From Verrucomicrobia bacterium IMCC26134 (lineage in GTDB: Bacteria > Verrucomicrobiota > Verrucomicrobiia > Opitutales > Opitutaceae): a DNA stretch of 64,000 nucleotides. The stretch lies in the NCBI GenBank assembly GCA_000972765.1, contig CP011265.1:2155501-2219500 (forward strand), read 5' to 3'. Every line of letters starts with the position of its first letter. Within the stretch, counting starts at the first letter, position 1. A model generated the notes under the pieces. That model was not told the origin of the DNA. It saw nothing but the letters and a program-made list of their open reading frames with translations, and made no database searches. Shown here piece by piece: positions 21,946-32,689 of the stretch. The position numbers and the translations under genes are program-made.

Positions 21946-23157
21946 TTATGTATGCTGTAACGATTCCGAAACCCAATCCTTCGCCGTTAGTTTTCTCGGA
22001 CTCTTCATCACCAAATTTGCCAGTTGTGTCAAAGGGCGCGTAAAACCGAACCATTGCAAGCGGGCCGATTGGCGCAGCACCATCTGATCCCTGAATCCAT
22101 CATTATTAGCTAGTTTTTGAGCCACACGAACCGCATCGACTGGTGCCGTAACCGCCAATTCTGGAACGACTAGGTAAGGATTCCACAAGCGCTTAGGATT
22201 TCCAATCAAAAGTAAACCGGCCGAGGCTGCGTCCAACATAGCCAGTCCACCCAAGGGCCTCGTCGGAGATGAAAATACAAGCGCGGATGATTTGAGTAGA
22301 ACCTCAAAATAGCCAGCCAAGGTCGAACAGCATCCTTTCGCATACGGAATACTTGAGTTCTTAAAGGCTAGCTCGACCGCTGGGTTTTGATTATCTTCTA
22401 ACAGCACAGTGAATGGCTTGGCTGTGCTGTCACGGGCATCCTGTGACGCAGGGGTGGCTTTCGATCTTGGGTGCATCGTCCGCTTTAACGCGCCCGGAGT
22501 GGTGAAATTGTATGGCCAATCAATCACATGCTCTCTGCGAACTAGTGATTGTGGGTTAGGACCATAGCGCAGGTTTAAAAAGGCATCATACCCGCTGGGG
22601 GGATGCGCGAGATAGGATTTATAAGGACGCATCTTATGGTGCTCCAGTAGCGTCGCCCAAACAACACCGGGATAAGCCCGCGTAATCCGACCAGGCACGG
22701 CGTTTTCGATCGCGATGACCAAATCAAAGCGACTCCAATCCACCTCATGACTCCAGACCGCAACCTTTTCCTGAACCCCGTGACGGAAACGATCATCTTT
22801 TTCCCTGACTGGATTGTTTTTCCAGTATGCTTTTTTTTCCTCCCAGACCCGGCATTCCGTATCCAACTCGGGGTGAACAATCAAAAAGGTAGTATTAAAC
22901 TCCGTAAAAAGGCCAAGCGGTCCCGTGCGATGCCAACTTGAGCAGATTATGTCGGCAATCACGGTCGAATCCGGTTTGGAATACAGATCACAATAAGTGC
23001 TTTGTTTAACCAGCGCGATTCTTAGTCCAGGTTCAAAGGGTGGCCTTTGAGCAACAGACTCTGGTAACCCTTGGAACCTGCCCCGCTCAAACCATGCCAG
23101 ACTTGAACAGGCCCGAGACCACGCGCATACCGACAGAGATGCAGCCATTTCCCTCAT
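21946..23157 (-). CDS. Protein of unknown function, possible GT-B-type glycosyltransferase
   Basis: A 403-residue protein for which I recognise no exact family. Segments such as RIALVKQSTYCDLYSKPDSTV, FDLVIAIENAVPGRITRAYPG and AMLDAASAGLLLIGNPKRLW (a late glycine-rich, donor-site-like region) suggest a GT-B fold. Position among glycosyltransferases and common orientation support a role in polysaccharide assembly. The first 40 residues look poorly ordered; a later start is possible. Confidence 0.5.
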   Translation of the reverse strand: MREMAASLSVCAWSRACSSLAWFERGRFQGLPESVAQRPPFEPGLRIALVKQSTYCDLYSKPDSTVIADIICSSWHRTGPLGLFTEFNTTFLIVHPELDTECRVWEEKKAYWKNNPVREKDDRFRHGVQEKVAVWSHEVDWSRFDLVIAIENAVPGRITRAYPGVVWATLLEHHKMRPYKSYLAHPPSGYDAFLNLRYGPNPQSLVRREHVIDWPYNFTTPGALKRTMHPRSKATPASQDARDSTAKPFTVLLEDNQNPAVELAFKNSSIPYAKGCCSTLAGYFEVLLKSSALVFSSPTRPLGGLAMLDAASAGLLLIGNPKRLWNPYLVVPELAVTAPVDAVRVAQKLANNDGFRDQMVLRQSARLQWFGFTRPLTQLANLVMKSPRKLTAKDWVSESLQHT

Positions 23158-23231
23158 TATATATTACTCATCAGGTGCTCTAGGCGCAAACCCGGTGAGT
23201 AGGACCAGCAATAATTAAATCGGTCATGGTG

Positions 23232-23245
23232 CTAGAAGCTAGAAT
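23232..23245. repeat. CTAG heptamer block 5 (2 units)
   Basis: CTAGAAG CTAGAAT at 23232-23245, two units of the CTAGNNN period-7 repeat seen at 24316-25265. The first unit supplies the TAG stop codon of the epimerase on the minus strand. Confidence 0.7.
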
Positions 23246-24302
23246 CTTTGCGGCTTATCGTCGCTTCCACGATCTGTCGGATCGTTTCTTCTAACGATTG
23301 GGTGATCTCCCACTGGGGATAGTGAGTCCGCATTTTGCGCAGATCAGAGTAATAACAAATGTGATCCCCGGCGCGGTTTCGATCTAGGTAGGTATAAACC
23401 TGCGCCTTGCCGCTGAATTTCTCCGTGATTTTAAAGGCTTCCCAGATGGATGTGCTGTTCGCCTTGCCGCCGCCAAGATTATAAACTTCGCCCGCCCTTG
23501 GAGCCGCGACAAACGCCGCCATGAATCGCGCCACGTCGAGTGAGTGTATATTATCGCGAACCTGTTTTCCTTTATAACCGAATACCTTGTATTCACGCCC
23601 ATCCAGGTTGCACTTCACCAGATGAGACAGGAAGCCATGCAACTCGACACCGCTGTGATTGGGCCCGGTCAGGCATCCCCCACGCAGGGCACAGGTGGGC
23701 AGATTAAAATAGCGTCCATACTCCTGCACCATCACATCGGCCGCGACCTTGGATGCGCCAAAGAGCGAGTGCTTGGATTGATCGATAGTAAACGTCTCGG
23801 CGATGCCCTGTTCGTAAGCGGTATCAGCGTAATCCCAACGCGTTTCCAGCTCCTTGAGTGCGATACGGTTGGGCGCGTCCCCATACACCTTGTTCGTGCT
23901 CATGTGCACAAAGGGGGATTCGGGACAGGCCTGGCGTGCGGCTTCGAGTAAGTTCAGTGTGCCGACCGCGTTGGTATCGAAGTCGTCGAAAGGAATGGCC
24001 GCAGCGCGATCGTGGGAGGGCTGGGCGGCGGAGTGGACGATGGCCGAAGGCTTCAGCTCTTTTACCAAGGCCAGCACGGCGGCACGGTCGCGAATATCGA
24101 GTTCGTGGTGCTGAAACCCGGGTAACTCAGCGAGGAGGCGTTTCTGATTCCACCGCGTATCGCCTTGGGGCCCAAAGAAGACGGCTCGTTGATTATTATC
24201 CACCCCATGCACGGTATAACCGAGCTCGCGAGTAAAGTAGCTACTGACCTCCGAGCCGATCAAGCCAGAGGAGCCGGTGACTAGGAGGGTTTTAGGCATC
24301 AA
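23232..24302 (-). CDS. CDP-paratose/tyvelose 2-epimerase-like NAD-dependent epimerase
   Basis: A 356-residue extended [14 protein letters not shown] is the NAD-binding motif; [10 protein letters not shown] has the acidic residue for ribose; [13 protein letters not shown] and [15 protein letters not shown] match the RfbE/CDP-tyvelose epimerase branch. The active-site segment is [11 protein letters not shown], so Phe stands where Tyr of YxxxK is expected. It is the first gene of the long minus-strand polysaccharide locus and so lies closest to the regulatory module. It would supply a rare dideoxyhexose or epimerised sugar; the exact reaction is not certain. Confidence 0.75.
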
Positions 24303-24315
24303 AGATGAAAAGTTG

Positions 24316-24343
24316 CTAGATACTAGTTACTAGGGACTAGATG
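24316..24343. repeat. CTAG heptamer repeat, block 1 (4 units)
   Basis: CTAGATA, CTAGTTA, CTAGGGA and CTAGATG run at exact 7-base period from 24316 to 24343, directly upstream of the epimerase start on the minus strand. Confidence 0.88.
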
Positions 24344-24406
24344 CTTGGTGCGATGCCTAAACCGAGCTTCGCCCCGTCGCGTCCCACAGAGGGAGGCAAC
24401 TTTGAT

Positions 24407-24435
24407 TGTATAAAAGACTTTTCTGACCGGACCAA
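24407..24435 (-). promoter_or_regulatory. Candidate promoter of the polysaccharide operon
   Basis: On the minus strand TATACA is at 24412-24407 within TTTTATACAATC, a fair -10 match. The -35 zone (about 24435-24430) reads TTGGTC, weak. It would drive the epimerase gene and the genes beyond. Poor -35 boxes are common in activator-dependent promoters, but no activator site is shown. Confidence 0.3.
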
Positions 24436-24442
24436 AGTGAGG

Positions 24443-24485
24443 CTAGTCACTAACTGCTAGTGGCTAGTGACTGGTTGATAGCTAG
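24443..24485. repeat. CTAG heptamer repeat, block 2 (5-6 units)
   Basis: CTAGTCA, CTAACTG, CTAGTGG, CTAGTGA, CTGGTTG then ATAGCTAG follow a 7-base period from 24443. The final CTAG (24482-24485) provides the TAG stop codon of the adjacent regulator gene on the minus strand. Confidence 0.85.
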
Positions 24486-25018
24486 CGAAGGATGCGCTGG
24501 AGCAGGGGAAGGAAGGTGGAGATGCGCTTTTGCCAGGCCCCGAGCATCTCAATACGCTCCTGGCGGAATTTTTTGACCTGAGGGGTAACAGTGGCATCCG
24601 CCTCGTTTTTGAGCTGGCCCAAGGCGCCGCTACTCCGTTCCAAGTGCGGCCGCAAACGCTCCGCCAGCAAACGCCCGACGAGCACCCGCATCTTGATCTC
24701 AGGTTGAAAAAAGTCGCGGCGGTCGCCCGCCACATACACCGGCTTGAGCGCACCGAGATCACGCAAGGTGCGCAACCCCTGGCTGGCCGAGCCTTTACTC
24801 ATCTTTAACCGTTCGCAAACCTCAGCTAAATGAATGGGTTGCGGAGAAATGTAAGCCAGGCCGTAAAGCTCGCCCAAGGAGCGGGGAAACCCAAGGACAT
24901 CCGCCGCTGAGACAAACATCTCAATGACTCCGCGCTCACACTCGTCGAGCGGCAGGAACTCCACGCCCTCCAAAGGCGGAGCTGCAACCGTGGCTTCGAT
25001 GGGGGGCGACGAATCCAT
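24482..25018 (-). CDS. GbsR/MarR-family transcriptional regulator
   Basis: From the ATG at 25018 the protein has 178 residues and starts MDSSPPIEATVAAPP; an ATG at 25087 would add 23 residues. It has a winged helix-turn-helix: LGELYGLAYISPQPIHL, then LAEVCERLKMSKGSASQGL (recognition helix) and LRDLGALKPVYVAGDR (wing). A long C-terminal helix region (VGRLLAERLRPHLERSSGA) would form the dimer interface. GbsR-type regulators repress or activate neighbouring transport and envelope genes. It is placed at the head of the polysaccharide locus, opposite in orientation to the NusG-like gene. Confidence 0.78.
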   Translation of the reverse strand: MDSSPPIEATVAAPPLEGVEFLPLDECERGVIEMFVSAADVLGFPRSLGELYGLAYISPQPIHLAEVCERLKMSKGSASQGLRTLRDLGALKPVYVAGDRRDFFQPEIKMRVLVGRLLAERLRPHLERSSGALGQLKNEADATVTPQVKKFRQERIEMLGAWQKRISTFLPLLQRILR

Positions 25019-25088
25019 TGATAAAGCCGGATAATCCAGTCTCCGATTCGGAAAGTTCAATCTTTTTTGAACAATCTCACGAAACAAT

Positions 25089-25138
25089 CTAGTGACGCAG
25101 TGGCTAGTAGCTAGTAACTAGAGGCTCGTGGCTCGTGT
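25089..25138. repeat. CTAG heptamer repeat, block 3
   Basis: CTAGTGA at 25089, then CTAGTAG, CTAGTAA, CTAGAGG, CTCGTGG, CTCGTGT at 7-base period from 25104 to 25138. The first unit is one base out of phase. The last unit runs into the REP-like element that starts at 25135. Confidence 0.8.
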
Positions 25139-25204
25139 AGCCACGCCCGTGCCGGTCGAGCTCCGACGGATCGAAAAAAACGTCCGACACGGACGTTGCT
25201 ACAC
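25135..25204. repeat. REP-like palindromic element A
   Basis: GTGTAG (25135-25140) and CTACAC (25199-25204) bracket two inverted half-elements. The right half contains CGTCC-GACAC-GGACG, a perfect hairpin, and the left half ACGCCCGTGCCGG is a degenerate match. The GTAG heads facing each other are the classical form of paired REP elements associated with RAYT (TnpA-REP) transposases. Related copies lie at 25815-25883 and 25896-25965. Confidence 0.82.
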
Positions 25205-25232
25205 AAAACCCGGATGAACCGTAAACCGACTA

Positions 25233-25265
25233 CTAGTCGCCTGCGGCCAGAAGCGAGTTGCTAGC
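25233..25265. repeat. CTAG heptamer repeat, block 4 (degenerate)
   Basis: CTAGTCG at 25233, then CCTGCGG, CCAGAAG, CGAGTTG and CTAGCCT at 25261: the first and last units keep the 7-base phase (28 bases apart) with degenerate units between. It lies just upstream of the NusG-like gene. Confidence 0.6.
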
Positions 25266-25295
25266 CTCGTCGCTTCCGCCCTTTCCTCCCCCATC

Positions 25296-25820
25296 ATGCA
25301 AACCGGCTCCCCTCCTCTTCCGCCCTCCGATGCGACGGATCTGCGTTGGCATGTGGCGCATACCAAGCCCCGCTGCGAAAAGAAGTTCGCTGCGTTGCTG
25401 ACGGCCGAGGGTTTCGCCCATGAGCTCCCGCTCGGAAAGGTGCAGCGTCGCTACGGGGTGCGTATTCGGGTGCACACCAAGCCGATTTTTCCCGGCTACG
25501 TATTCATTCAGGTGCCGGAAACTGCCCGGGCCCGCTGCTACCAGCAAAATCTCATCGTGCGGCTTATCCCCGTGAGCGACGAAAAAACCTTTCTCACCCA
25601 ACTGGAGGCGGTGCGTCGCATCGTGGCCTCCGGACTCGAAACTGCGGTGCGACCGCTTTTCCCAAAAGGTCAGCTGGTGCAGGTGGTGAGCGGTCCGCTG
25701 CGCGGCATGCAAGGCGTGGTGGACGACCCCAACCGCCCCGGAGGCGTGATCATCATGATAGACGCGCTCCAGCAGGGCCTGCTGGTCAAAATCCCCGCAG
25801 TCGATCTTCGCCTGATGTAG
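25296..25820 (+). CDS. Specialised NusG paralogue (UpxY/RfaH-like transcription antiterminator)
   Basis: A 174-residue protein. Residues about 17-110 form the NGN domain: RWHVAHTKPRCEKKFAALL, GVRIRVHTKPIFPGYVFIQVPET and ARCYQQNLIVRLIPV. About 122-174 is a KOW motif: PKGQLVQVVSGPLRGMQGVV. A separate NusG paralogue beside a capsule or O-antigen locus is typical of UpxY (Bacteroides), RfaH and LoaP, which let RNA polymerase read through long polysaccharide operons. It is divergent from the operon. No ops-like element was found by eye. The stop codon TAG falls inside REP-like element B. Confidence 0.88.
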   Translation: MQTGSPPLPPSDATDLRWHVAHTKPRCEKKFAALLTAEGFAHELPLGKVQRRYGVRIRVHTKPIFPGYVFIQVPETARARCYQQNLIVRLIPVSDEKTFLTQLEAVRRIVASGLETAVRPLFPKGQLVQVVSGPLRGMQGVVDDPNRPGGVIIMIDALQQGLLVKIPAVDLRLM

Positions 25821-25883
25821 CGGCGCCCCTGCCAGACGTGTTCCGCTGCTTCGGAAAAACGTCCGTCACGGACGTTACTACAT
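25815..25883. repeat. REP-like palindromic element B
   Basis: ATGTAG (25815-25820) and CTACAT (25878-25883) bracket a palindromic unit with CGTCC-GTCAC-GGACG on the right and a degenerate left half. It is related to elements A and C. Its GTAG also forms the ATG TAG end of the NusG-like gene. Confidence 0.78.
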
Positions 25884-25895
25884 GCTCTGCGTCTC

Positions 25896-25965
25896 GTGTA
25901 GCCACGCCCGTGCCGGGCTTGTTCCGACGGCTCGAAAAAAACGGCCGACACGGCCGTTGCTGCAT
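25896..25965. repeat. REP-like palindromic element C
   Basis: GTGTAG (25896-25901) and CTGCAT (25960-25965) bracket a unit nearly identical to element A. Hairpins are GCCCG-TGC-CGGGC on the left and CGGCC-GACAC-GGCCG on the right. Its last base is the first base of the stop codon triplet of the DUF2017-like gene on the minus strand. Confidence 0.8.
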
Positions 25966-26507
25966 CAAGCACCCTCGCGGTCTCCGCCTTCATCGCCAGT
26001 CGCATCGTCGTCGTCATCCCCGTCTTCGTCAGACATCTCCCCGGCTGGGCCCTTCAAAATCGCCCCGTCCAAGTGCTGGATAATCAGCTCCTGGATCGTC
26101 GCCAGAAACAGGTAGCACATGAAGGGCTTTCGCAAGGGTTCGGGAAGCGTCTCCACGTCGATGCCGCCACCTTCGAGCTGTTCATCGCCCAAGCGGCGCA
26201 GATCGTGCCGGCGCAAACGCAGGCGGAGCGCGGAACAAGCACGCACGATGATCTCGGCGTTGTCCTCGTCGAAGGCCACCACCGCGTTCTCATAAAAATC
26301 GCTGTTAAACAACCCCATCAGCGCACTCAACTCTTCCTGCTGGCCGGCGAGCAGCTCGGCGCGCCACTCGTCGCGGAAATCGGCATCGATGTCGTCCAGC
26401 GTCAAAGGGGCCGCGATCTGCGCCTGCAACACGTCGGCCGAGTCCTTCATCAGGTCGAGAAGCGGCGCGACGACGGTGAGGCTGAGCTTTACTTCAATGC
26501 GTTTCAT
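25965..26507 (-). CDS. clpS-linked DUF2017-like protein with acidic tail
   Basis: A 180-residue protein that I place, by context more than by motif, near DUF2017, which is found next to clpS in Actinobacteria. It is mostly helical. Notable segments are LLDLMKDSADVLQAQ, DFYENAVVAFDEDNAEIIV and FMCYLFLATIQELIIQHL. The last 20 residues are almost all Asp/Glu/Gly (GDDDDDATGDEGGD), a strongly acidic tail. It overlaps clpS by 14 bases, so the two are probably translated together. Function not known; a link to N-end-rule proteolysis is plausible. Confidence 0.55.
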   Translation of the reverse strand: MKRIEVKLSLTVVAPLLDLMKDSADVLQAQIAAPLTLDDIDADFRDEWRAELLAGQQEELSALMGLFNSDFYENAVVAFDEDNAEIIVRACSALRLRLRRHDLRRLGDEQLEGGGIDVETLPEPLRKPFMCYLFLATIQELIIQHLDGAILKGPAGEMSDEDGDDDDDATGDEGGDREGA

Positions 26508-32605: not shown

Positions 32606-32689
32606 AAAACCACCGCTCCACTTCTTCACCGGCCGACCCCGCAACATTGGGAATTGGTCATTCGTCATTTGTCCGTTAGCGAAGTCTCC

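Follow-up and report, generated by a model that had tools for sequence, protein, structure and literature searches.

The 64,000-nucleotide (nt) stretch of the Verrucomicrobia bacterium IMCC26134 genome studied here (contig CP011265.1, positions 2,155,501 to 2,219,500; hereafter the window) carries blocks in which the palindrome CTAG recurs every seven bases, around a sugar epimerase gene, a gbsR-like regulator gene and a nusG-like gene. CTAGNNN adds a new sequence family to a class of seven-base repeats that is known but unexplained. We read the blocks, with moderate confidence in the explanation as a whole, as genus-restricted arrays of heterogeneous heptanucleotides, each with a CTAG core and three free bases, that occupy the gaps between co-directional genes. 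Heptamer repeats between operon genes recur in unrelated bacteria, and there is no accepted cause for them. Here the kept palindrome is separated from the drifting bases, so that slippage, selection on the leader RNA and recombination can be tested against each other. Related species show array presence, array absence and motif change at the same gaps, and at one locus a gene gained or lost between the halves of an array.

CTAG arrays in the window and the genome

A first-pass annotation made from the letters of the window alone had reported CTAG heptamer repeats. These are real: the period-7 blocks can be read directly, and their excess beats simulations. Direct counts on the plus strand gave 7 pairs and 3 triples of CTAG at lag 7; 200 second-order Markov simulations gave a mean of 0.135 pairs, a maximum of 1 pair and no triples. 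Across lags 4–39 of the window, CTAG pairs numbered 7 at lag 7, 4 at lag 14 and 0–2 at all other lags. In the 4.0-Mb genome that holds the window (G000; other G numbers denote the compared genomes and L numbers denote loci), the triple pattern is present at 6 positions and its reversed control at none. The pair pattern occurs at 20 positions in about eight places, with 7 of the positions in the window. The reversed pair control (GATCNNNGATC) occurs at 75 positions in G000, but is of little use for comparison, GATC being about seven times commoner than CTAG (2038 versus 288 in the G000 sample).

We found no lag-7 excess of CTAG in a systematic 400-kb sample of G000 (1 pair; 387.5 kb after removal of N, of which 12.5 kb lay in one stretch), and no general lag-7 excess in 277 kb of G012, a non-random sample of its first contigs, some late contigs and three stretches near arrays. 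The arrays are therefore rare, sparse and local in G000. Lag-7 autocorrelation across all gaps was barely above that at other lags.

Distribution and heterogeneity

Four-unit arrays are present in 11 of 15 genomes of the genus versus 2 of 80 genomes outside it; the family is genus-wide. The reversed four-unit control matched in 1 of the 95 genomes. Overlapping four-unit matches number 84 in G012 and 20 in G009. Among the matches listed, the five-unit pattern is also met across many phyla outside the genus, and the 131 five-CTAG arrays found there are built of one unit type in 61 cases, two in 46, three in 17 and four or five in 7. At the genus loci (L045–L080), 21 of the 26 arrays with at least five CTAGs in a row have at least four spacer types.

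Period 7 is also enriched in the sampled gaps of G012 through other motifs, for example CATTGGW, with 160 tetramer triples at lag 7 versus 3–27 at other lags, and with 9 strong period-7 windows versus none at lags 4, 5, 8, 10, 11 and 13. The excess in G000 is slight (12 triples versus 3–9 at other lags). CTAGNNN is thus one among several heptamer families of the genus. A CATTGGW-like array of degenerate ATTGGTC heptamers is found in G000 itself, at 32646–32680 of the window, 9 nt before a gene start.

Arrays fill gaps between co-directional genes

Placement was analysed for 64 non-redundant arrays of at least three CTAGs from the genus loci. Genes were called by a codon-score script, and start positions may therefore be off. 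Fifty arrays lie in co-directional gaps, 3 in convergent gaps, 2 in divergent gaps and 9 at contig edges; the last were left out of the placement tests. The co-directional share (50 of the 55 placed arrays) exceeds that of gaps in the G012 sample (108 of 154; P = 2e-4). The observation that the blocks lie at gene edges holds well beyond the window, in that most arrays fill gaps between co-directional genes.

The contact with the flanking genes is close at both ends. A CTAG of the array is itself the stop codon of the upstream gene in 21 of the 50 co-directional gaps, compared with 63 of 882 other genes (obtained by subtraction) that end in a CTAG stop (P = 8e-11). A further 15 arrays start within 10 nt past the stop and 14 do neither. 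Downstream, the distance from array end to first possible start is 0–20 nt in 34 of the 50 gaps, 21–40 nt in 7 and greater in 9.

Spacer composition and leader RNA

The arrays follow a strand rule: read in the direction of transcription, the spacer pyrimidine fraction is above 0.6 in 33 of 44 arrays and below 0.4 in 5. In G012, spacers (360 bases, coding strand) consist of 69% C, 22% T, 8% A and 0.3% G, whereas ordinary co-directional gaps contain 43% C, 18% T, 13% A and 25% G. With free bases nearly devoid of G on the coding strand, the leader RNA of G012 arrays is less folded than ordinary leaders. The 18 array leaders have a median folding energy of -11.7 kcal/mol versus -17.1 kcal/mol for 68 controls (P = 1.5e-4), and in all 18 arrays random flipping of the spacers leaves the RNA more paired.

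The G-poor leaders are hosted by a lineage without a Shine-Dalgarno (SD) signal. SD-like words at ATG starts showed no excess in G000 (10 of 211; 13 in one shuffle) or G012 (10 of 189; 10 in the shuffle), whereas a mixture of other phyla had 103 of 321 versus 54 in the shuffle. A search for 16S ribosomal RNA in G000 gave no match, probably owing to masking (12.5 kb of N in one sampled stretch). Leaders in the G000 and G012 samples are C-rich.

Some gaps in G000 and G006 hold two arrays that face each other. The four of these that were folded each form one long hairpin (z = -3.3, -5.2, -7.5 and -3.8), and at L027 and L077 a terminator-like G+C stem and T-run lie inside the hairpin.

Unit variation and decay

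Adjacent units share the same spacer in 13 of 159 cases, versus 16.5 expected when units are permuted within arrays. Contig C136 of G012 departs from this with a run of CTAGCCA units. Comparison with between-array pairs had suggested that neighbouring units avoid each other; this idea is rejected, as it was not upheld by within-array permutation (P = 0.18).

The 42 lattice units with one mismatch to CTAG include CCAG (10), CTGG (8), CTCG (7), CTAA (5), TTAG (2) and CTAC or CTAT (6 together), with no ATAG or GTAG; the flanking units in these counts include chance matches. Vsr repair was considered as a cause of CTAG to CTGG or CCAG changes: Vsr matches are present in 10 of the 15 genus genomes (short in G007 and G012) and none was found in G001, the species with CTGG units. 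Three hand-aligned homologous arrays differ at 0 of 40 core positions and 8 of 30 spacer positions, and a fourth pair at 4 of 12 core and 3 of 9 spacer positions. These core differences are biased low because the arrays were found by exact CTAGs.

The polysaccharide locus

The blocks of the window and the genes they adjoin are as follows.

23232–23242, minus strand: Block A, two CTAG units (23232 and 23239); 23232–23235 is the epimerase stop codon and the other CTAG is read as sense.
23232–24299, minus strand: NAD-dependent epimerase/dehydratase gene (Pfam PF01370).
24316–24347, minus strand: Block B, four CTAG (24316, 24323, 24330, 24337) and a decayed CTTG; ends 16 nt before the epimerase ATG.
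24360–24437, minus strand: conserved stretch between two arrays, kept in G000, G001 and G004; leader of the polysaccharide operon.
24443–24474, minus strand: Block C, downstream of gbsR; on the plus strand CTAG, CTAA (24450), CTAG (24457), CTAG (24464) and CTGG (24471).
24482–24485, minus strand: CTAG stop codon of gbsR, 18 bases from 24464 and off the phase of Block C.
24482–25018, minus strand: MarR/GbsR-like regulator gene (PF12802; score 27.7 bits, cut-off 27).
25089–25135, minus strand: Block D, upstream of gbsR; CTAG at 25104, 25111 and 25118, CTCG at 25125 and 25132, and an out-of-phase CTAG at 25089.
25233–25264, no strand assigned: Block E, upstream of the nusG-like gene; decayed lattice of CTAG, CCTG, CCAG, CGAG and CTAG (25261).
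25296–25820, plus strand: NusG-paralogue gene (PF02357).

Five blocks had been described at this locus. Four are clear, and the fifth (25233) is weak and decayed. The two CTAG stop codons described with them do end the epimerase and gbsR-like genes, although that at 24482 does not keep the phase of the block at 24443.

The same sites differ in part between species. At the counterpart of Block B there are CTAG arrays in G004 and decayed arrays in G001. At the site of Block C the coding-strand core is mostly CTAG in G000; the units there are CTGG in G001 and CTAA in G004. In G000 the region upstream of gbsR holds Block D, a repetitive extragenic palindromic (REP)-like palindrome and nusG; G001 has an array of 8 units and another gene, and G004 has that gene and no array.

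The conserved stretch at 24360–24437, between gbsR and the epimerase in three species, is a candidate leader RNA close to the NusG paralogue. An Rfam search of 22800–26300 gave 3 matches up to an E value of 1, all below the gathering score and none in 24300–24500. A palindrome, GTTCAATCTTTTTTGAAC, at 25055–25072 upstream of gbsR is a likely operator; its coding strand reads GTTCAAAAAAGATTGAAC in G000 and G001, and GTTCAAAAAGGATTGAAC in G004. REP-like palindromes (GTAGC ... CGTCCGACACGGACG ... GCTAC and kin) are found at about 25137–25202, between Block D and nusG, and again at 25860–25970 after nusG. Those at 25137–25202 adjoin Block D but stand apart from the CTAG lattice.

GTAC is absent from the window (103 expected), from the 400 kb of G000 (601 expected) and from the 277 kb of G012 (370 expected). 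In the whole of G000, GGTACC occurs 0 times versus 1165 for CCATGG. Across the genus, GGTACC numbers 0–15 in 11 of 15 genomes, about 160 in G003, G005 and G008, and 40 in G014. In Helicobacter and Campylobacter, GTAC avoidance has been linked to PabI-type restriction glycosylases (PMC10273834).

Orthologous gaps and gene exchange

Comparison of orthologous gaps revealed turnover of arrays between species. In sets 1, 2, 3, 4 and 9, a gap with an array in G012 or G009 corresponds to an array-free gap in G000 or G004, with lengths of 41/27, 26/24, 90/21, 47/36 and 85/7 nt, respectively. Set 8 has facing arrays in G006 and none in G000, set 11 has an array in G001 and none in G004, and in set 6 the array of G002 corresponds to 365 nt with at least one extra open reading frame (ORF) in G003. 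The species compared in sets 5 and 7 carry arrays whose spacers differ and whose unit numbers differ in part. In sets 1, 3, 5 and 9 the upstream stop codon lies at the same aligned place, and is TAG in the array species (G002 in set 5) and TGA or TAA in the other. Unit numbers as well as spacers therefore differ between species.

Gene content also differs at some arrays. The gbsR and epimerase genes adjoin in G000 and G001, and one gene has been gained or lost between array halves in G004, where an AbiEii-like nucleotidyltransferase gene (PF08843, just over the cut-off) lies between them, flanked by an array of 7 CTAGs on the left and one of 4 CTAGs on the right. No copy of it was found in G000 or G001; homologues are present in G005, G008 and G003. 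The G000 unit order TCC-TAA-TAT-CAA is split around it, with CTC-TAA on the left and TAT-CAA (last core CTAA) on the right. The TAT spacer occurs in 2 of 226 spacers, apparently those of G000 and G004. In G001 and G004, nusG and gbsR are on separate contigs, and no arrays were found within 1.5 kb on either side of nusG in these genomes.

Elsewhere, a nucleotidyltransferase/substrate-binding pair and a PIN-domain gene of G003 (L067:3950–6381) are separated by CTAG arrays. At this locus the PIN ORF reads into an array and takes its stop there, and CACGGAT words are directly repeated over more than 100 bp. Orthologues at L056 (G009) and L211 (G000), whose order is kept, are separated by 804 nt with a CTAG array at the edge versus 27 nt. 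Five further comparisons match at one neighbour with a different order (L058/L064, L067/L060, L070/L274, L050/L241 and L050/L271, the last involving a second copy within G012); there is no baseline for these.

With G000 as the target, gene order is kept at 8 of 10 distinct array gaps versus 16 of 37 co-directional gaps without arrays, although the numbers are small. Both array gaps with changed order belong to the window locus. We conclude that the arrays are mainly spacers of ordinary operons that only sometimes coincide with gene exchange. The proposal that each gene of the locus is a cassette inserted or tagged by the repeat is thus upheld in part: gene content does differ at the arrays of the window locus (the AbiEii-like gene of G004, nusG), but this is not a rule.

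Proposed origin of the arrays and alternative explanations

We infer that the arrays may arise and lengthen by errors of replication and recombination, as is the case for heptamer repeats in many bacteria. They would persist only between genes, where they are harmless, because a seven-base unit with TAG in every frame ruins a gene. Selection may keep start-proximal arrays unpaired, and the need for an open leader would then set their direction and composition. As repeated DNA at gene edges, the arrays may occasionally act as seams for the gain or loss of small genes.

Several observations weigh against this account. The array loci were chosen for holding arrays, and sampling apart from them was confined to G000 and G012. 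Avoidance of G is pronounced in G012 alone: the spacers of G009 contain 24% G, and 5 of 44 arrays have a purine-rich coding strand. Compared with mononucleotide shuffles of their own sequence, array leaders fold slightly more (mean z -0.9), indicating that their openness is due to base composition alone, and not to base order. Simple slippage predicts like neighbours, and adjacent units resemble each other no more than they do after permutation; slippage as the sole cause is rejected. CTAG is kept while spacers change in three of four hand-aligned arrays, which neutral decay does not explain. In the fourth pair, the core changed in step (CTAG, CTGG or CTAA), which fits a reader of the motif or gene conversion better than drift.

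One alternative is an RNA control element, in which the CUAG lattice before a start codon would be bound by an RNA-binding protein or the ribosome and determine how the downstream gene is translated, a role also proposed for TAACTGA repeats. The strand bias that tracks gene direction, the position of the arrays next to starts that lack SD signals, the kept cores among varying spacers in three of the four alignments and the recurrence of arrays at corresponding gaps of different species (sets 5 and 7, and the window locus) are consistent with such an element. However, the annotated flanking genes share no function (flgK, flgN, exbD-like, sulfatase, sugar enzymes, GspF-like, NADH dehydrogenase subunit, lpxK and ABC transporter ATPase), one species is without a CTAG array in 8 of the 10 orthologous sets (all but 5 and 7), and at one site the species have different cores. 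We regard this explanation as unlikely. Less likely still is that the arrays are primarily seams where recombination between arrays inserts or excises small genes, toxin-antitoxin-like modules above all. The AbiEii-like gene with the split unit order around it and its absence from G000 and G001, the displaced nusG of G001 and G004, the nucleotidyltransferase pair and PIN gene of G003, the 804-nt gap of G009 and the five one-sided comparisons with differing order all suggest such traffic. Breaks in gene order are nevertheless not in excess at arrays, and where an array fills a gap, whatever is inserted there will border the array anyway. A comparably improbable combination of the two would have a lineage-specific factor of shifted specificity read the lattice, such that all units of an array switch in concert (CTAG, CTGG and CTAA at one orthologous site) as spacers drift, with the arrays as landing sites for toxin-antitoxin-like cassettes that enter operons without breaking genes.

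Two further explanations concern the sequence of the unit itself. Because seven is two codons plus one and CTAG is self-complementary, three units give TAG in six frames, and selection could keep the arrays as a six-frame stop barrier; the use of an array CTAG as the upstream stop in 21 of 50 gaps agrees with this arithmetic. The decay spectrum of the 42 units disfavours it: CCAG, CTGG, CTCG and four others lose both stops (CTAA and TTAG keep both), and ATAG or GTAG, which retain the stop in the sense direction only, number 0 versus 6 for the antisense-only CTAC and CTAT. What the arrays conserve is not the stop codon as such. The sister families CATTGGW and CTGGNNN also have no such stop lattice, and we consider a barrier very unlikely. 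Finally, the arrays might form G-quadruplexes on the template strand, like the Xanthomonas GGGAATC repeats, whose placement and strand rule (Rehm et al. 2015, PMC4692102) match those found here. With a three-tetrad pattern in only 1 of 41 arrays, and a two-tetrad pattern in 13 of 41, this reading is disfavoured and the least probable of all. Our preferred explanation remains that of heterogeneous arrays grown by replication and recombination errors and tolerated between co-directional genes.

Relationship to known heptamer repeats

The likeness of the blocks to cyanobacterial heptamer repeats, drawn in the first-pass annotation, is apt with regard to their period of 7 and intergenic position. 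The cyanobacterial short tandemly repeated repetitive (STRR) sequences, and the long simple sequence repeats of Mrazek et al. 2007, reportedly favour heptanucleotide units, lie between genes and are largely uniform tandem repeats. The CTAG arrays of the genus do not consist of identical tandem units with signs of slippage, as adjacent units are alike no more often (13 of 159) than under permutation. Among the matches listed from other organisms, 124 of the 131 five-CTAG arrays have one to three unit types. Among the top-ranked matches in one literature collection, we found no paper that deals with heptamers of the CTAG type or with heptamer repeats in Verrucomicrobiota.

The closest relatives appear to be the heterogeneous heptamer repeats described by Rehm et al. 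2015 (PMC4692102), GGGAATC or (GGGANTN)n in Xanthomonas and GGGGA(C/T)T in Nostoc. Those repeats share with the CTAG arrays the period of 7, a partly variable unit and a location mostly between aligned ORFs. Their purine-rich strand is antisense close to starts and sense close to stops, they overlap stop codons, occur as inverted pairs and show no functional class, and their gene context is kept while length and sequence vary between species (PMC4692102). The CTAG arrays have this 7-base period, co-directional placement (50 of 55), a strand rule and kept context (8 of 10 versus 16 of 37). Unlike those repeats (PMC4692102), they have a different motif with a palindromic core and three of seven positions free, have little quadruplex potential, belong to a genus of Verrucomicrobiota and are fewer per genome as far as counted.

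The TAACTGA direct repeats of Beggiatoaceae, some Cyanobacteria and Bacteroidetes, for which roles in translation and gene rearrangement have been suggested (MacGregor 2015, PMC4679880), are also similar. TAACTGA arrays (PMC4679880) end just before starts, overlap upstream stops, give stops in all frames, are associated with few SD sequences and adjoin genes with no common function, as do the CTAG arrays. The TAACTGA unit, however, does not vary and related heptamers seldom occur as repeats (PMC4679880), whereas three positions vary in CTAGNNN and its core is palindromic. The CTAG arrays thus lack a fixed TAACTGA-like unit, but share with those repeats an end a few nucleotides before a start that has no SD signal.

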